Below, in pieces: positions 5,491 to 30,048 of a stretch of 64,000 bases of DNA. The stretch covers positions 62,001-126,000 of the forward strand of contig NZ_QZWF01000011.1 in assembly GCF_004187715.1 (NCBI RefSeq), read 5' to 3'. Origin of the DNA: Streptomyces sp. F001. Its GTDB lineage: Bacteria; Actinomycetota; Actinomycetes; Streptomycetales; Streptomycetaceae. A program made the position numbers and the translations under genes. Under the pieces are notes generated by a model. The model worked only from the letters and a program-made list of their open reading frames with translations, ran no database searches and had not been told where the DNA came from. The first letter of the stretch is position 1. Each line of letters starts with the position of its first letter.

Positions 5491-6621
5491 TCAGCCGCCC
5501 AGTTCCTGGTACCGGGCCGCGAGCCGCGTCGCGCCCTCCTGCGTCAGGGAGCCGAACAGGCGCAGGCGGGAAATGCCTCCGTCCGGGAAGATGTCCACGC
5601 GCGCGTGCGTGCCGACGGCGGGCGTGGGCAGGACGAAGCGGTGGTTGGTGTCGGGCTGGAGCCGGGTGCGCGGCAGGATCTGCGTCCACTCGCCGTCCTC
5701 GCCGTCCCGTACCGACACCGACGCCCAGCCCGCGCTGTTGCCCTTCAGGTACGCGGTGTCGATCTCGATCGCACGGATCCGGGACCGGTCGACGAGCCGG
5801 TAGCGGATCCAGTCGTTGCCCCGGTCGCGGCGGCGGCGCGTCTCCCAGCCGTCGTCCATCTTGCGGGAGCGGCCCGGCTGGATGGTGTTGGTGGCCGGCG
5901 AGTAGAACAGGTTGGAGGCGTCCTCGGCCTGGCCGCCGTTCTCCAGGGCCACCACGTCGAAGGTGCCCAGCACCGACAGCCACTCGGGGTCCGGGACCAC
6001 CTCGCCGTACACCCGCAGGCGGGCGATTCCGCCGTCGGGGTGCTGATTGACGCGCAGGTGGGTGAAGCGCTGCTCCACCGACACGGGGAAACCGTTCGCC
6101 GCGTGGCCGCCGACCGGGGTGCGCGGGAGAAGCGTCGTCCACTTCACATCGTCGGCCAGCAGTTCCTGCGGGGACGGGGAGCCGGGCACCGAGGCGCCCT
6201 CGATCGAGACCGCCTGGGGGTAGTTGCCGCGGAAGTGGGCCGTGTCGACCACGATGCCCCGGACGATGCCTGGCGCGCCGAGCCGGACCAGCGCCCAGTC
6301 GTGGTCGTCGGGCGCGGGCCAGGGGTGCTCGGCGGAGACGCCGCGGCGGCGTCGGGTCTCCCAGCCGTCCATGATCTTGCCCTTGTGCCCGAAGTGCTCG
6401 GGGTCGAACTCGGCGCGCTCGGGCACCAGCAGGTTCTCGCGCTGGGCGAAGAACTCGTCGTTGGCGGCGATGACTCCGGCACCGAGTCGGCGGTCGGCGA
6501 GGTTGGCGTACTGGGTGAAGGGGAAGTCGGCGGTGCGGTAGTCCGCGTAGGGGTCGCCGCCTGCGTAGGGGTTGGCGTCGCCGGTGAAGGTCGCCAAAGG
6601 GAATTGATGCTGCGCCGTCAC
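5491..6621 (-). CDS. alc: Allantoicase
   Basis: A 376-residue allantoicase (allantoate amidinohydrolase), which splits allantoate into ureidoglycolate and urea in the cytoplasm. The protein contains two homologous allantoicase repeats, visible as duplicated segments: KIMDGWETRRRRG and KMDDGWETRRRRD, then IVVDTAHFRGNYP and IEIDTAYLKGNSA. The GTG start at 6621 (VTAQHQFPLATFTGDANPYA) has an AAAGGAAG ribosome site. An open frame continues far upstream but overlaps the allantoinase gene and is out of family. It lies 32 bases downstream of allB on the same strand, so the two are almost certainly one operon controlled from the allB-allR intergenic region. Confidence 0.95.
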   Translation of the reverse strand: MTAQHQFPLATFTGDANPYAGGDPYADYRTADFPFTQYANLADRRLGAGVIAANDEFFAQRENLLVPERAEFDPEHFGHKGKIMDGWETRRRRGVSAEHPWPAPDDHDWALVRLGAPGIVRGIVVDTAHFRGNYPQAVSIEGASVPGSPSPQELLADDVKWTTLLPRTPVGGHAANGFPVSVEQRFTHLRVNQHPDGGIARLRVYGEVVPDPEWLSVLGTFDVVALENGGQAEDASNLFYSPATNTIQPGRSRKMDDGWETRRRRDRGNDWIRYRLVDRSRIRAIEIDTAYLKGNSAGWASVSVRDGEDGEWTQILPRTRLQPDTNHRFVLPTPAVGTHARVDIFPDGGISRLRLFGSLTQEGATRLAARYQELGG

Positions 6622-6653
6622 GGGGATCAGGGCTTCCTTTCGGGAGTCGGGAT

Positions 6654-7988
6654 TCAGGGGGTGCGGGTGAGCAGGCGCCCCTTCGGTGCGGTGAACTCGC
6701 CGTCCGCCACGATGCGTTCGCCGCGCAGCCAGGTGGACTTCACGACGCCGCTGAGGGTCTTGCCGGCGTACGCCGTGACGCGGTTGCGGTGCTGGAGGGC
6801 CGCGGGGTCCACGGTGAAGGTCTCGTCGGGTGCGAGGACGGCGAAGTCGGCGTCCCGGCCGGCCTCGATGGCGCCCTTGTGCCCCAGTCCGACCAGTTCC
6901 GCCGTCCGCGTGGACATCCAGCGGACGACGTCCTCCAGGGTGTGCCCGCGTGTGCGGGCCTCGGTCCACACCGCCGCCAGGCTGAGCTGGAGGCCGGAGA
7001 TGCCGCCCCAGGCGGTGGCGAAGTCGTCGGTCTTGAGGTCGGCGGTCGACGGCGAGTGGTCGGTGACCACGCAGTCGATGGTGCCGTCGGCCAGCGCCTG
7101 CCAGAGCAGGTCCTGGTTGGCGGCCTCGCGGATGGGCGGACAGCACTTGAACTCGCTGGCCCCGTCCGGGACTTCCTCGGCCGTCAGGGTCAGGTAGTGG
7201 GGACACGTCTCGACGGTGAGCCGGACGCCCTCGGCGCGGGCCTCGGCGATCAGCGGCAGGGCGTCACTGGAGGAGAGGTGCAGCACGTGCACGCGCGCGT
7301 GGAGGCGCCCCGCCTGCGCGATGAGGTGGGCGATCGCGGTGTCCTCGGCGTCGCGGGGCCGCGAGGCGAGGAAGTGGGCGTACTTCGGTCCGCCCTGCTG
7401 CGGGGCGGCGGCGAGATGGTGCGGGTCCTCGGCGTGCACGATCAGCAGGCCGTCGAAGGCGGCGATCTCGGCCAGGGACCGGGCGAGTTGCTCATGGTCG
7501 AGGTGGGGGAACTCGTCCACACCGGACGGCGACAGGAAGGCCTTGAAGCCGAAGACGCCGGCGTCGTGCAGCGGGCGGAGGTCCTTGACGTTGCCGGGCA
7601 GGGCGCCGCCCCAGAAGCCGACGTCTATGTGGGCCTTGTCGGCGGCGGCCTTCTGTTTCGTACGGAGGTTCTCGACCGTGGTCGTCGGCGGGAGGGAGTT
7701 GAGCGGCATGTCGACGAGGGTGGTGATGCCGCCGGCCGCCGCTGCGCGCGTGGCGGTCCAGAAGCCCTCCCACTCGGTGCGGCCGGGGTCGTTGACGTGC
7801 ACGTGGGTGTCGACCAGGCCGGGCAGCAGGACGTGGTCGCCGACGTCCTCCACGCGGACGCCCCCGACGGGAGCGTCGTACGGCAGTACGGCTGCGATCC
7901 TGCCCCCGGCGACCGCGACCGACGCGGCGCGCGTTCCCTCGGGTGTGATGACGCGCGTCGAGCGCAGCACCAGTTCAGCGTCGGACAC
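6654..7988 (-). CDS. allB: Allantoinase
   Basis: A 444-residue cyclic amidohydrolase that opens the hydantoin ring of allantoin to give allantoate. Metal-binding residues are visible: the HVHVND motif after the first strand, the Lys of [11 protein letters not shown] that is carboxylated in this family, the His residues of IVHAEDPHH and HVLHLSSSD, and the Asp of [12 protein letters not shown] at 7988 is preferred because an AGAGAGGGG ribosome site precedes it. Twelve further in-frame codons upstream are basic and overlap the operator. It is the first gene of allB-alc and is divergent from allR. Confidence 0.96.
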
Positions 7989-8014
7989 CCGGACCCCTCT
8001 CTGCCGCCGTTGAC

Positions 8015-22190: not shown

Positions 22191-22586
22191 TCACACCAAC
22201 TCCGGCGCGTGATCCTCGTCATAGGCCGCGCGCGACTCGGCGATGTAGACCCTGTTCTGCTCGGCCCAGTCGGTCAGGCGCTGCAGGGTCTCGTGCAACT
22301 CCCGGGCCACCGGCGTGAGTTCGTACTCCACCTTCGGCGGCACCGTCGGATGGACCGTACGCGTGACGAGGCCGTCGCGCTCCAGATTGCGCAGGGTGAG
22401 GGTCAGCATGCGGCGGCTGATGCCCTCGATGCTGCGCTCCAGCTCGGTGAAGCGGATGGGTCCGTGGGCGGCCGCGACGAGAATCTGGACGCTCCATTTT
22501 CCGGAGACCCTGTCAAGAACTTCGCGGACGGGGCACGCGTGCGCGTTCACGATCTGCGAGGTAACACCGGTGTTCCTCTGGGACAT
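22191..22586 (-). CDS. HxlR-family transcriptional regulator (copy 1)
   Basis: A 131-residue HxlR winged-helix protein: HACPVREVLDRVSGKWSVQI, RFTELERSIEGISRRMLTLT, then the wing PTVPPKVEYELTPVARELHE. The single N-terminal Cys is typical of members that sense electrophiles. It is divergent from an MFS efflux gene that it probably represses. It is a close paralogue of the regulator at 29650-30048, and both divergent regions contain an identical 13-base sequence (see 22635-22647). Confidence 0.92.
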   Translation of the reverse strand: MSQRNTGVTSQIVNAHACPVREVLDRVSGKWSVQILVAAAHGPIRFTELERSIEGISRRMLTLTLRNLERDGLVTRTVHPTVPPKVEYELTPVARELHETLQRLTDWAEQNRVYIAESRAAYDEDHAPELV

Positions 22587-24845: not shown

Positions 24846-25361
24846 ATGTCTCCTTCACTTGAACGTCCCCCGTTTCAGGCCGACGAGCGCACCGCGCTCA
24901 TTGGCTGGCTGGACCTTCAGCGGCAGATCCTGCGATGGAAGTGCGAGGGCCTCAGCGAGGCGGATGCGCACCGCTCCGTCATCCCGACCTCGCCGGCGAT
25001 GACGATGGCCGGGCTCATCAGCCATATGCGGTGGGTCGAGCACACCTGGCTGGAGGTGCTGTTCCTTGGTGGAGACGAAACGCAGAGCCCGTCCTTCGAC
25101 GAGACGGACGAGGACGCCGACTGGCGCACCGACGGCGTCACGCTGAAGCAGCTGCTCGAGGATTACGAGACCCAGTGCGCCCGAAGCAACGAGATCGTGG
25201 CCGCAGCCTCTCTGGACGACGTCGGTCGCCACCATGGCTACCGCTCCGGCAAGGCCAACCTCCGATGGATGCTCATCCACCTCATCGAGGAGACCGGACG
25301 GCATGCCGGACACGCGGACATCGTGCGGGAGCTGCTCGACGGGGCGAAGGGGTACTACTAA
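24846..25361 (+). CDS. DinB-family metal-dependent protein
   Basis: A 171-residue four-helix DinB/YfiT-type protein. The three metal-ligand histidines are visible: one in LISHMRWVEHTWLEVLF and two in HLIEETGRHAGHADIV. Members are thiol transferases or hydrolases, or of unknown function. The stop lies 15 bases from the convergent stop of the TnpB-like gene, so the mobile element's right boundary is very close to this gene's end. Confidence 0.88.
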   Translation: MSPSLERPPFQADERTALIGWLDLQRQILRWKCEGLSEADAHRSVIPTSPAMTMAGLISHMRWVEHTWLEVLFLGGDETQSPSFDETDEDADWRTDGVTLKQLLEDYETQCARSNEIVAAASLDDVGRHHGYRSGKANLRWMLIHLIEETGRHAGHADIVRELLDGAKGYY

Positions 25362-25376
25362 GACTTGATCCGCAAT

Positions 25377-25554
25377 TCACCAAAGGGTGAGCTGTGGACT
25401 GCACGCGGGGCGGGGTCCGGGCTTTCCGGCGTGGTCACGCACGAGGCGCGGCTCATCCGGGGTTGCTCGGTCCCGCCGTCCGGCGGTTCGGTGAGCAGAG
25501 GCCCCGTGCTGTCGCGGGACTGCCACGCGACCAGCACCCCGAGGGGTGTTCTGG
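25377..25554 (-). ncRNA. Candidate omega-RNA-like region overlapping the 3' end of the TnpB-like gene
   Basis: Three hairpins fall in the last 180 bases of the coding sequence. CCAGCACCCC pairs with GGGGTGTTCTGG (25531-25554, two mismatched T), CCGCC pairs with GGCGG (25473-25486), and TCACC pairs with GGTGA at the very end (25377-25390). In known TnpB systems the guide RNA scaffold overlaps the tnpB 3' end and the guide is the flanking DNA. Here that flank would be the dinB 3' end. This is inference; no RNA data are available. Confidence 0.3.
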
Positions 25555-27380
25555 CACGGTGTGGTTGACTCACCCAGGGCTTCTTCCAGCCCTTGATCGA
25601 AGATGATTTGTGCGTGCCGCGACCGGGTGGAGTCCAGGGCCGCGGTCTTCGGGTCGTCGGGATCGGTCAGGTTCACGAAGGCGGCCAGGGCGGCGGATAC
25701 GAGATCCCGCTTGCCGACGAGTCCGCACGCGATGCACTTGTGCTCCCGGTCCCGCAGCGTCTTGTGTACGCGCTCACCGCACAGGCAGTGCTGTGATAGA
25801 GCCGTGGACCAGGTGGAGGCCCGCACGAGCCTGCCCCCGGCGGCCTTGCACTCGATCTCCAGGGCGGAGATCAGCATGCCGGGCGTCGTCTGCGACAGGC
25901 GTTTGCCCCACAGTCGGTACCAGGTGCGGATGTCGCAGTCCTCCACCGTGAGGTGGGGTCCGTGGGTGGCGATGATGTCGCGGGCCACGGCGCGGGCGCG
26001 GTGGCGCCGGTACTCGGCTGCGGACGCGGCGGCTTCGGCCTGACGGGCGCGCATCTTGCGGTAGTTGGCGGACAGCCGATCGCGCCGGTATGCCTGCTTC
26101 GGCACCCCATCGGATCGTGCGTCGCGGGCACCGCCCGGCACGGTCACGGTCTTGGCCTTGAGGCCGTTGGCGGCTCGGCGCTCGGCCCGCTCACGCTGCC
26201 TCTTGGACATCCCGTACTGGGCGGTGTTGGTGGCCCGGCGGGAGCGCTCAAGGGCGCGGGCGCGGCCCCGCTTCTTCTTCGCCTCCTTCTCCAGCCGTGC
26301 CTTCTCCTCCTCGGTCAACACGATCTCCGAAGACGCCGGGGTACTGTCGGCGGGGTCCAGGGAGGCGGGGAAGGACACGATCGACAGGTTGGAGACGTTG
26401 CCGTCCACCCCGCCGATCCGCTCCAGCGTGGCGGCCTGCTGACGCATCTGCCGGATGGCTGGGGAGGCGTAGCCGGAGCCGAGGATCAGCAGGTGCGCCT
26501 CATACACCCAGCCTCCAGGGGCGGATGCCTTACGGCGGCGTACGAGGTCCACCTTGTGCCAGCGGCGCGGGTCGGCAAGGAAGTGCCGAACACGCTCCTC
26601 CTGCCCCGGCCCCTGCGGGATGCGGACGGGGAGCACGAGGTCACCGCGTTTGCTGTCCGGGCCTCCGGTGAACACCACGGCGAGCGGCCCGGTGTAGTCC
26701 CACCAGTTCGCCTTCCGCATCGAGGGCTTGCCCGAGGCGGCGACCTTGCCAGTGGCCACCTTGCCCGTGGGCATCTGCGGCTTCGGCATCCGGTGCGGCT
26801 GCATCAGGGTGTGCTGGCCGCCGTCGGTGAAGGGCATGACATGGCCGTGGAGGGTGCCGACGAGGCGGAAGGTCTCCCACTTGTTCTCGGTCGTGTGGGA
26901 GCGGGCGCGGCCCGGAATCCGGGTGAAGTCGTGCCGCCGGCCGACGCGGGGGCGACCGTGGCGCTTGCCAGTTGAGTCGGCGAACAGGTGTCGGGAGACG
27001 CCGTTCCACGCCTCGTCCGCGATGTGCATGGCGAGGGCCTTGGTGGCGTGGTGCTTGAGGTGCCCGGCGTCCTCCAAGTGCTTGTACGCGCAGCGCTCCA
27101 GGGCCTCACGGCTCAGGTCGAGGCGCTGTCGTACGGCCTTCGCCCCATCGCGGTCCCGCTCGTGCTTCGCGGCCCAGTACGCGTCGACCTTGGCGCGGGC
27201 ATCGCGCTGGACGGCCCGCTTGATCGACCACATCGCGCCGAACAGCTTCTCCAGCCGGGCCAGGTCGGCGGGGTCGGTGACGGCCAGCGGCAGCACCATC
27301 ACCGACACCGTCCCCTCGTCGGGCTTGGTCCACTTCGGGGCCTTGTTCTTCCCCCGGAACTTCCTTTGCGGGCTGGACAT
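25377..27380 (-). CDS. TnpB-like RNA-guided nuclease family protein, 667 residues
   Basis: A large member of the TnpB family encoded by IS200/IS605- and IS607-type elements. The RuvC-type catalytic residues are present: Asp326 in GGVDGNVSNLSIVSF, Glu480 in HLTVEDCDIRTW and Asp559 in GKRDLVSAALAAF. The zinc ribbon lies between the last two (Cys532 and Cys534 in HCLCGERVH, Cys549 and Cys552 in HKCIACG). It is much longer than the usual 350-450 residues because of an N-terminal region of about 300 residues. The last 65 residues are basic and low in complexity. No TnpA transposase is adjacent; instead a small HTH gene is divergent. The enzyme is predicted to be active, but it may now serve a host role. 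Confidence 0.8.
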   Translation of the reverse strand: MSSPQRKFRGKNKAPKWTKPDEGTVSVMVLPLAVTDPADLARLEKLFGAMWSIKRAVQRDARAKVDAYWAAKHERDRDGAKAVRQRLDLSREALERCAYKHLEDAGHLKHHATKALAMHIADEAWNGVSRHLFADSTGKRHGRPRVGRRHDFTRIPGRARSHTTENKWETFRLVGTLHGHVMPFTDGGQHTLMQPHRMPKPQMPTGKVATGKVAASGKPSMRKANWWDYTGPLAVVFTGGPDSKRGDLVLPVRIPQGPGQEERVRHFLADPRRWHKVDLVRRRKASAPGGWVYEAHLLILGSGYASPAIRQMRQQAATLERIGGVDGNVSNLSIVSFPASLDPADSTPASSEIVLTEEEKARLEKEAKKKRGRARALERSRRATNTAQYGMSKRQRERAERRAANGLKAKTVTVPGGARDARSDGVPKQAYRRDRLSANYRKMRARQAEAAASAAEYRRHRARAVARDIIATHGPHLTVEDCDIRTWYRLWGKRLSQTTPGMLISALEIECKAAGGRLVRASTWSTALSQHCLCGERVHKTLRDREHKCIACGLVGKRDLVSAALAAFVNLTDPDDPKTAALDSTRSRHAQIIFDQGLEEALGESTTPCQNTPRGAGRVAVPRQHGASAHRTAGRRDRATPDEPRLVRDHAGKPGPRPACSPQLTLW

Positions 27381-27472
27381 GCTGTATGACCGTCACCTCC
27401 CTTCGAAATTAGTTGACTTACTACATATTGCATGAGTAGTTCACCTATGACAATCGAGATAGAATAGTGTTT
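27381..27472. promoter_or_regulatory. AT-rich divergent promoter region between TnpB-like and HTH genes
   Basis: This 92-base segment is markedly AT-rich compared with the rest of the window and contains TTGACTTACTACATATTGC-like promoter sequence. A related TTGACCTAATG follows the HTH gene at about 27699. The composition marks recently acquired DNA; the small HTH protein may bind here. Confidence 0.45.
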
Positions 27473-27670
27473 ATGAGCGCTCAGATTCCCGGATATGCAG
27501 ACGCTCGGCAGGCAGCGGAACGACTCGACGTCACCGCGCAGCACGTCTACAACCTCAACAGCAGCCGCACCGACTTCCCGGCCCCCATCTACGTCGGCCG
27601 CACCCCCTTGTGGCCGGTAGACCGGCTGGACGCCTGGAGGCAGGCCCACCCCAAGCCAGGGAAGCGGTAA
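27473..27670 (+). CDS. Small helix-turn-helix DNA-binding protein (excisionase/AlpA-like)
   Basis: A 65-residue protein with a MerR/excisionase-type winged helix: DARQAAERLDVTAQHVYNLN is the HTH, and FPAPIYVGRTPLWPVDRLDAW is the wing and recognition region. It ends in a short basic tail. ATG 27473 is used; GTG 27467 is also in frame. It is divergent from the TnpB-like gene and shares an AT-rich promoter region with it. It probably regulates that element or acts as a recombination directionality factor; which one cannot be told. Confidence 0.75.
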   Translation: MSAQIPGYADARQAAERLDVTAQHVYNLNSSRTDFPAPIYVGRTPLWPVDRLDAWRQAHPKPGKR

Positions 27671-27725
27671 GCCACCTATCCCATATTCGGGAAGTAATTG
27701 ACCTAATGTGCCGTTCTGTCCGTTC

Positions 27726-28463
27726 GTGTCAAAGATCAACGTCGCCAGCCTGCGGCTTCGCTCCCTGCTGCGCTGGACCGGACTGCCCGTCAAGGCGTTC
27801 CTCGTGCTGGTCGCCCGCGTCGCCGCCCTCCTGCCGGGGCCGGGGCGCGAGCGCCCGTGAACGCTCCTGCTGGGCAACCGCGTTCTGCTGGCCGCCATCG
27901 CATGGCGCACGAACCTGACCCACCGCCAGCTTGCCGACTTCTTCGGCGTCGGCGTCGCCACCGTCCATCGCGTCATCGACCGCCTCACCCCCGTAATCGC
28001 CCGGCTCCTCGGACCAACCGAAAAAAGCCGGGCCGATCTATGGGTGGTGGACGGGACCTTGATCCCCGTGGAGGAGCACAAGGTGACGGCCTGTTCCAAG
28101 AACTACCGGCGCTCGGTGAACATCCAGATCACCATCCGCGCCAAGAACCGGCGCGTGATCGCCGTGGGCGACTCCTGGCCCGGCAACCGCAACGACATCG
28201 TCGTCTTCCGCGCCACCATGGCCGATCAGGTCGCCGGACACCGGCTGCTGATCGATGACGGCGCATACCGCGCCGCGCCGGAGGTCATCACCAGCAAGGC
28301 CAAGAGCAAGCCGTTCGCCAAGCGGCGTGCACGGGCCGAACACGCCATCGCCCGCCTCAAGGACTTCAAGGTCCTACGGCAGCACCGCAGGCGCGGCGAC
28401 ACCATCAACGACACCGCCCGCGCCGTCGCTGTGCTCCACAACCTCAAGATTGACTACGCGTAA
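27726..28463 (+). pseudogene. IS5-type (DDE_Tnp_4) transposase with internal stop
   Basis: One reading frame from GTG 27726 to 28463 encodes a transposase of about 245 residues, interrupted only by TGA at 27858-27860 (after GPGRERP). The N-terminal part has the HTH THRQLADFFGVGVATVHRVI. The catalytic part shows the first Asp in LWVVDGTLIPVEEHK, the second in GNRNDIVVF and the Glu in RAEHAIARLKDFKVLR. Apart from the nonsense codon the gene is intact, so it is either a recently inactivated insertion sequence or one with a base-call error. Clear terminal inverted repeats were not found. Confidence 0.8.
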
Positions 28464-28477
28464 ATACGGAACACCAC

Positions 28478-28618
28478 TTAGCTCTGTCCGGCATCTCGAG
28501 ACCGGAGCCAGAGTCGGATCGAGGCCACGGTGACGGTGCCGTGTAAGATGTAGGCGCGTTTGTCGAACCACGTCGCCACTGCCCGGAAGTTCTTGAGGGC
28601 GTTGATCGGTTGGCCGGG
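28478..28618 (-). pseudogene. C-terminal fragment of a second IS5-family transposase
   Basis: The minus strand encodes 46 residues (NALKNFRAVATWFDKRAYIL, then TVASIRLWLR) ending in a stop. This is the standard C-terminus of a different IS5-family transposase group. The upstream part is missing: the frame ends in a stop right at the end of the oxidoreductase gene. It is a relic of an earlier insertion next to the broken transposase. Confidence 0.75.
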
Positions 28619-29649: not shown

Positions 29650-30048
29650 ATGTCACGCAGTCACACCCGTGTTACCGAAGCGCTCAGGGAGGAAGCCTGC
29701 CCGGTCACCGAGGTGCTCGACCGCGTGGCGGGCAAATGGAGCATCGGGATCCTGATCGCCGCCGCCCATGGCCCGGTCCGCTTCACCGAACTCGAACGCT
29801 CCATCAACGGCATCAGCCGACGAATGCTCACCCTCAACCTGCGCAGGCTGGAGCGGGACGGACTGCTCGTTCGCACGGTGTATCCGACCGTGCCGCCCAA
29901 GGTCGAGTACAGCCTCACGCCTATGGCCCGAGAACTCCACGCCTCGCTGACCGGGCTGGTGGGCTGGGCCGAGCGTCACCGGTCCGCCATCGCCGAGGCC
30001 CGGGCCGCCTACGACACCGCGGCGGAGCAGGAACCCCACGCCGACTGA
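29650..30048 (+). CDS. HxlR-family transcriptional regulator (copy 2)
   Basis: A 132-residue HxlR protein: EEACPVTEVLDRVAGKWSIG, RFTELERSINGISRRMLTLN, then PTVPPKVEYSLTPMARELHA. The match to the regulator at 22191-22586 is close across the whole HTH and wing, including the lone Cys before the PV(R/T)EVLDRV motif. ATG 29650 has a GGAAGGAGG site. It is predicted to repress the divergent oxidoreductase and probably itself. Confidence 0.92.
   Translation: MSRSHTRVTEALREEACPVTEVLDRVAGKWSIGILIAAAHGPVRFTELERSINGISRRMLTLNLRRLERDGLLVRTVYPTVPPKVEYSLTPMARELHASLTGLVGWAERHRSAIAEARAAYDTAAEQEPHAD

Follow-up and report, generated by a model that had tools for sequence, protein, structure and literature searches.

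In the accounts on which we draw, bacterial TnpB nucleases are partnered with tyrosine (Y1) or serine transposases, and partners of the DDE type are described for the Fanzors of eukaryotes. In IS607, the fixed nucleotide flanking the element on its right is described as part of the RNA scaffold, and in eukaryotic cases the target-site duplication is incorporated into the scaffold of the guide RNA (PMC10711439). Putative TA duplications are mentioned for some Fanzor transposons (PMC3627910), and target-adjacent motifs (TAMs) such as TAG and CATA are reported for Fanzors (PMC10432273). We have studied a locus of Streptomyces sp. F001, contained in a stretch of 64,000 nucleotides (contig NZ_QZWF01000011.1, positions 62,001 to 126,000; hereafter the window), where tnpB, a small helix-turn-helix (HTH) gene and an IS5-like DDE transposase gene are found between matching inverted ends. 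This locus would belong, with a probability that we put at roughly 0.8, to a family of DDE cut-and-paste transposons of Actinomycetota whose second gene is tnpB and which also carry, in one of their clades, an HTH regulator.

Large surveys of TnpB exist (2021-2023). Our own literature search, which covered few subscription journals and no supplements and is weak evidence of novelty, found no bacterial DDE-TnpB element. The comparisons below rely on 65 related loci (designated L) drawn from species genomes, 43 from a clade near to the window and 22 from a more distant clade (about 50-59% identity).

Ends, insertion target and gene content

The element of the window (Table 1) is bounded by inverted ends, CTAAG... 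on one side and ...CTTAG on the other, with TA duplicated at a CTAG target. Once joined, its flanks match relatives where the junction reads CTAG (L072, L084) or CTCG (L085). Insertion took place at 25350-25360, where a mycothiol-S-transferase/DinB-like gene has its stop codon. This stop is TAG in L072 and L084 and TAA in the window, so that the product is unaltered. Six other insertion junctions were searched; L057, L051, L037 and L060 could be aligned with spanning relatives, and L017 and L044 were left out. CTAG was found in one of three aligned relatives for the L057 site (L107) and in one of three for the L037 site (L131, with TAG in L128 and CTAA in L126). At the L051 site, relatives mostly read ...TCAG, like a TGA stop on the opposite strand. 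We parse these data as insertion into CTAG with duplication of TA, which is the preferred, not the sole, parsing. The tetranucleotide is rare in this DNA, with 9 occurrences in the 64-kb window versus 174 expected from base composition alone. Host flanks differ among most loci.

Table 1. Features of the element and its borders (positions in the window)
Feature	Position	Strand	Remarks
Transposon inner unit	25361-28478		3118 bp; holds tnpB, HTH gene and DDE transposase gene
Predicted guide segment (host flank)	25338..25357	-	First 20 nt past the tnpB-side terminus
TA target duplication, tnpB side	25359..25360		Inside CTAAG; empty site is CTAG in L072, L084
Terminal inverted repeat, tnpB side, AGACTTGATCCGCAATTCAC	25361..25380	+	CTTAG by inner anchor, 38/39
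Predicted omega RNA scaffold	25361..25593	-	Limits approximate; overlaps tnpB 3' end, finishes in transposon end
tnpB, 667 aa	25377..27380	-	Folded part to ~605; D326, E480, D559; C532, C534, C549, C552
Imperfect palindrome TAGTTGACTTA, divergent promoter	27410..27420		Alignment of 10 intergenic regions; possible operator
Imperfect palindrome TAGTTCACCTA, divergent promoter	27437..27447		Alignment of 10 intergenic regions; possible operator
HTH protein, 65 aa, possible regulator	27473..27670	+	Excisionase-like by PHROGs
IS5-like DDE transposase gene	27708..28463	+	In-frame TGA at 27858-27860; fuller relatives in L060, L034, L136
Terminal inverted repeat, DDE side	28463..28478	-	Degenerate copy
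TA target duplication, DDE side	28479..28480		Inside CTTAG

A fuzzy pattern located the tnpB-side end at 61 of the 65 loci, as CTTAG in 59 and CTTAA in 2. With an anchor placed 20 bp inside the end, 39 sequences, counting that of the window, gave CTTAG 38 times and CTTAA once. Visual inspection adds CTTAG ends for L052 and L054 and a CTGAG end for L050; L026 is truncated there by the edge of its contig (7757 bases). Most near-clade loci have ...GGATCAAGTCTTAG at this end; the more distant clade has ...GATGACTCTTAG or a similar sequence. On the DDE side, a CTAAG-like end with at most 3 mismatches was recognized at 24 of the 65 loci, with exact CTAAG in 15. Both ends agree over at least 15 bp in L057, L017 and L051, and the plasmid locus L136 has a perfect inverted repeat of 19 bp. 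Moreover, contigs L034 and L038 start and stop precisely at the element ends, as expected of collapsed multi-copy repeats. Terminal inverted repeats and a short target duplication, the latter in the preferred parsing, are those of an IS5-like DDE transposon.

The 3' part of the transposase gene of the window matches Pfam DDE_Tnp_1 (4.5e-12) and DDE_Tnp_4 (4.8e-9). The DDE domain is above the cut-offs there and in L060 and L136; with 57.7 bits, L060 stays below the NCBIfam IS5 equivalog cut-off of 140. An earlier note on this DNA had drawn the feature at 25377-27670 and described a TnpB without transposase. These limits miss the transposase gene and both ends; here and in relatives, the ends that enclose tnpB also enclose the DDE gene, in divergent orientation. 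At 31 of the 65 loci (18/43 in the near clade and 13/22 in the other), the 1.9 kb upstream of tnpB contain, on the divergent strand, DNA homologous to the DDE gene; the stretch measures at least 600 bp in 12 loci and 78-528 bp in the remaining 19. This count took the divergent strand only and is by itself no test of orientation, and L056 and L064 have less than 1 kb of contig upstream of tnpB. In those loci of the more distant clade that have a DDE gene, this gene directly faces tnpB. Further Streptomyces have the DDE-TnpB arrangement, as do plasmids of Mycobacteroides abscessus, Mycobacterium intracellulare and Euzebya pacifica, whose annotations call the DDE gene (partial in Mycobacterium intracellulare) 'transposase family protein' and tnpB 'transposase'. 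Finally, the identities of the two proteins covary over 66 pairs from 12 loci (Pearson 0.92, Mantel p 0.0001), in a set chosen for readable DDE parts, some of them partial (88-256 aligned residues), and including the TnpB of L044 and the DDE of L012 with a stop masked.

It could be imagined that a conventional TnpB element, either IS1341-like or a remnant of IS605/IS607, merely received an unrelated IS5-like element in its flank. Such a history would agree with the 34 loci where no upstream DDE DNA was counted, and with the existence of DDE relatives devoid of tnpB. The same genome (G000) has stand-alone relatives of this kind, at 37-44% identity, among them a simple insertion sequence (IS) of 873 bp (G000:C21, L095), ended by TAAGGGCTGTCCCGTAA and without tnpB or HTH match in the stretch fetched. 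However, a single matching pair of ends encloses both genes, the empty site lacks both together, DDE and TnpB covary, and the divergent layout is repeated in Streptomyces and on plasmids of Mycobacteriaceae and Euzebya. We therefore regard an independent insertion in the flank as very unlikely. An accidental IS beside tnpB was rejected because of the shared ends, the covariation and the plasmid loci. A minimal element made of TnpB only was rejected too, since the matching ends and the unoccupied sites take in the DDE gene. An IS of this 873-bp type is a plausible ancestor. Also in this genome (G000:C19), a DDE relative and some 600 bp of additional sequence lie within 1.4 kb flanked by inverted TAAGGCTTGTCCCG ends (L101, 1425-2835).

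As the earlier note had stated, no tyrosine or serine transposase accompanies this TnpB. In a search of 7 genomes, no Y1 transposase characteristic of IS200/IS605 was matched on the window's contig (C11 of G000), the nearest matches by coordinates lying about 17 kb from L057 and 35 kb from L060. The corresponding search for serine recombinases (Resolvase, 7 genomes) gave no match on C11 or on the contig of L057 (C32 of G178), where a TnpA of this type would adjoin tnpB in an IS607 element.

The TnpB protein and the RNA predicted at the 3' end of its gene

The protein has the RuvC D-E-D triad and the C4 zinc ribbon of TnpB (OMEGA) nucleases. Asp326, Glu480 and Asp559, which the earlier note had singled out, are invariant in the 45 aligned proteins, as are cysteines 532, 534, 549 and 552 (the window and 44 of 48 loci checked, after exclusion of L005, L015, L035 and L044 for in-frame stops; the check did not extend to 17 of the 65 loci, which were truncated, frameshifted or not taken for other reasons). 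A TnpB/Cas12-type C-terminus is recognized by Pfam (Cas12f1-like_TNB, 5e-7, over the cut-off); the match to NCBIfam guided_TnpB (5e-12, 45.7 bits) remains under the curated cut-off of 100 bits. A sequence search of the PDB gave no match at E up to 1, and PADLOC and PHROGs scans returned distant Cas12f/transposase and DNA-binding matches only. With the AlphaFold model, Foldseek matches below 0.001 include Cas12f (E 3.5e-9), Cas12m, ISFba1 TnpB (1e-6) and Fanzor2, and the top VIA-align matches are Fanzor2, Cas12f and TnpB, with Z about 11. The model (pLDDT 68) thus has the TnpB/Cas12f fold with WED, REC and RuvC. The tnpB gene is present in a single copy in the 9.72-Mb genome (E up to 0.001), and RNA-guided, TAM-dependent cleavage is predicted for its product.

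The unusual length of the protein had been ascribed to about 250 extra N-terminal residues. In the model, residues 23-299 superpose on residues 2-173 of ISDra2 TnpB (8ex9_A; Z 8.9, root mean square deviation 3.9 over 160 residues), which led us to reject a separate 250-residue N-terminal domain. According to this superposition, the WED/REC region at the N-terminus is enlarged, and some 105 extra residues, as judged from the aligned range, are scattered within it. More extra length lies between the RuvC motifs, where 154 residues separate D326 from E480; this spacing is shorter in ISDra2 TnpB. So does part of it in the last 65 or so codons, which behave mainly like RNA that does not code. Residues 606-667 are disordered in the AlphaFold model and, with the codon signal, this disorder led us to reject the view that the C-terminal part serves mainly as protein.

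Over roughly its last 70 codons, tnpB coincides with a structured, covarying RNA. In the codon test, third-position excess was taken from 23 sequences of the near clade (the window plus 22 loci) and from 9 of the other. For the near clade, values of 1.5-4.7 along the gene give way to 1.4-2.1 past residue 570 or so; for the other clade, 1.9-9.6 gives way to 0.8-1.5 past residue 600 or so. Nucleotide divergence in the RNA part of near-clade sequences (0.14-0.20) is not above that upstream. In the other clade, the same is true of the first RNA block (0.14), and divergence then climbs to 0.25-0.45 near the end. Over the last 240 nt or so, 35 near-clade sequences support 51 pairs, with 98.4% of cells paired. 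Two-sided changes concern 13 pairs and 103 cells, as compared with 10.4 and 30 in shuffles. The covariation score, 0.195 versus 0.079 +/- 0.005, was reached by none of 500 shuffles and falls to 0.01-0.05 when the structure is slid. The alignment comprised the window and 34 of 37 located loci (L016, L065 and L066 excluded; L019 not located; L020, L025, L026, L028 and L047 not tried). In the other clade, where 16 of 18 located loci were aligned (L045 and L049 excluded; L050, L052, L054 and L064 not tried), the fold is partly alike, with 46 pairs, 5 of them compensatory. Rfam, searched at E up to 5, gave two sub-threshold matches, neither at the predicted RNA. Covariation supports RNA structure in the 3' part of tnpB; transcription, processing and reading of the flank as a guide are predicted. 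In several copies of the more distant clade (clade 2), the stop codon of tnpB is a TAG built from the TA of the target and a G.

Distribution, the HTH gene and possible domestication

Both open reading frames announced in the earlier note, that of tnpB and that of the HTH protein, are present, separated by an AT-rich gap. The pairing of the two genes recurs beyond this genome, but it is not constant. An HTH homologue occurs at 14 of the 65 loci, all among the 43 near-clade loci, and three of these homologues are partial or broken (L026, L028, L065); none was detected at the 22 loci of the more distant clade. For this reason, the HTH protein was rejected as the defining partner of TnpB. It may nevertheless bind the palindromes TAGTTGACTTA and TAGTTCACCTA of the divergent promoter.

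The family is patchy, with presence in 8 of 91 Streptomyces genomes and 2 of 61 relatives (own genome counted in both). These figures are lower bounds, derived from first-look candidates of which at most 14 (set of 91) and 19 (set of 61) per genome were scored. Some genomes hold several copies. This distribution bears on the possibility that the host keeps HTH and TnpB as a domesticated RNA-guided system for regulation or defence; a domesticated system under control of the HTH protein was one of the proposals of the earlier note. Three Streptomyces have, at one same colinear locus (L025, L028, L047; around 5700-8000 of each), an HTH-tnpB pair without DDE gene, whose tnpB shows purifying selection (dN/dS 0.22-0.24). 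There, the predicted guide would span the start of a gene that seems TetR-like from its motif. As to the window, relatives with an unoccupied site and the patchy presence argue against domestication. Against it also stand the several copies in some genomes, the frameshift in tnpB of L028 and the intact nuclease triad, which differs from that of dead-TnpB regulators. A conserved locus inherited vertically without transposition functions is better illustrated by L025, L028 and L047 than by the window; domestication thus appears unlikely as an explanation of the latter, and these three loci, not the window locus, are candidates for it. The other proposal of that note, a minimal non-autonomous element, holds as regards mobility and the lack of autonomy of the present copy, which has an in-frame stop, and fails as regards minimality, the unit having three genes. 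Elsewhere, L007 and L031 share a site, with a dN/dS of 0.37 for the pair and a frameshift in L031.

Several features of the surroundings may be added. Judging from the tnpB-side flanks of L057 and L037 (81% identity over 322 bases), elements from both clades occupy the 3' terminus of apparently the same gene in different species. To the right of the element, 28502-28608 resembles short repeats present at up to 3 places per genome in other Streptomyces, and probably belongs to another IS. Lastly, two regulator genes about 7 kb apart (22191-22586 and 29650-30048), alike in translation, are presumably HxlR-like.

Proposed mechanism and relation to known systems

Ends, target, unit, structured RNA and conserved active site are each supported by comparison, and a cycle may be proposed from them. 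The DDE transposase would act on the inverted ends to bring the unit into CTAG sites, with duplication of TA; here boundaries and target come from the comparisons and activity is assumed. The tnpB transcript would continue out past the tnpB-side end, and its 3' part would fold as an omega RNA scaffold finishing in ...CTTAG, the host sequence directly past it becoming the guide. The predicted RNA, of about 230 nt, would run from a GGGCTGGAAGAAGCCC hairpin to CTTAG and then to the flank. TnpB with this RNA would cut the empty CTAG-guide site on sister or incoming DNA, and repair would copy the element back. Cutting of the empty site followed by repair restoring the element has been proposed for other TnpBs (PMC10278001, PMC11870625). 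CTTAG would thus be scaffold and CTAG the TAM, following the same logic as the fixed flanking nucleotide of IS607 and the duplications of eukaryotic elements, as these are described in PMC10711439. Self-protection would require that the TAM reads the C of CTAG, because the site is TTAG-guide when occupied and CTAG-guide when empty. The HTH protein is a possible repressor of the shared divergent promoter.

One may also consider that TnpB steers the DDE transposase to its target. The co-divergence of the two genes is compatible with such RNA-guided transposition, and type V-K CRISPR-associated transposons (CASTs) do join a TnpB-descended effector to a DDE transposase. On the other hand, flanks past CTAG vary between most insertions, the triad is intact, and a guide copied from the flank targets the old site, not the new one. 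In addition, the open reading frames of the unit leave space for three genes, no profile search for TnsC or TniQ having been made. We hold this to be the least probable of the alternatives considered.

Several points weigh against the reading as a DDE transposon family with TnpB as second gene. The transposase gene of the window is broken by its in-frame stop so that, as it reads, this copy cannot produce transposase in one piece, tnpB being still open. No DDE-homologous DNA was found on the divergent strand within 1.9 kb at 34 of the 65 loci; therefore, many copies would have lost, or never possessed, the transposase. CTAG was seen in none of 22 aligned relatives of the L051 site, nor in the single one of the L060 site (TCGG). 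A TA duplication is moreover indistinguishable from insertion without duplication because the ends are palindromic around TA. On the protein side, the first zinc knuckle is C-x-C and confidence in the model is middling (pLDDT 68.3, pTM 0.47). Concerning the RNA, two upstream blocks of near-clade tnpB have equally low third-position ratios (1.5, 1.6), and the structure was scored on its own source alignment, relatedness also favouring such scores. The enrichment of flanks in the stop-codon register is modest (38/58 versus 29/58 and 13/58 in shifted frames), and TAM and guide register are what we infer. We would give even odds to the fuller proposal of an Actinomycetota-wide DDE-TnpB family, independent bacterial counterpart of the Fanzor capture, in which the omega RNA scaffold has the transposase's inverted end as its 3' terminus, the CTAG target is the TAM, and HTH-TnpB has become fixed as a host locus in some Streptomyces.

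If true, a bacterial DDE-TnpB family would open to test the adaptation of a guide-RNA nuclease when its transposase partner changes. The nuclease would be matched to its mover, with one sequence doing two jobs at each step. Are end, scaffold, target and TAM re-matched upon capture? The stand-alone DDE relatives of the same genome should help to answer. Also expected from such a family is a TnpB that is large and divergent and has a TAM of the CTAG type.

Among known systems, type V-K CASTs are Tn7-like, and their effector is nuclease-dead and CRISPR-guided; the triad is intact here. TldR proteins, which are TnpB-derived dead repressors, share the TnpB descent and differ in the same respect (45/45). 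The IS5-like simple IS of 873 bp has a related DDE transposase and similar ends, and differs by the lack of tnpB and HTH matches. IS607 and IS200-IS605 resemble the present element in having a TnpB with an RNA that overlaps its 3' end and reads into the flank, whereas a DDE transposase, inverted repeats and target duplication are found here, without Y1 or serine recombinase. The Fanzor transposons of eukaryotes and their viruses also associate a TnpB-type nuclease with inverted repeats and a DDE transposase, a setting known for eukaryotic Fanzor1 and described in PMC3627910 and PMC10711439. The tnpB product resembles Fanzor2, among others, by fold. In contrast with the Fanzor elements, that of the window is bacterial, with an IS5-like DDE transposase, a CTAG target and, in one clade, an extra HTH gene. 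The best reading of these sequences would thus be a bacterial DDE transposon that captured TnpB, in parallel to the Fanzor capture in eukaryotes.

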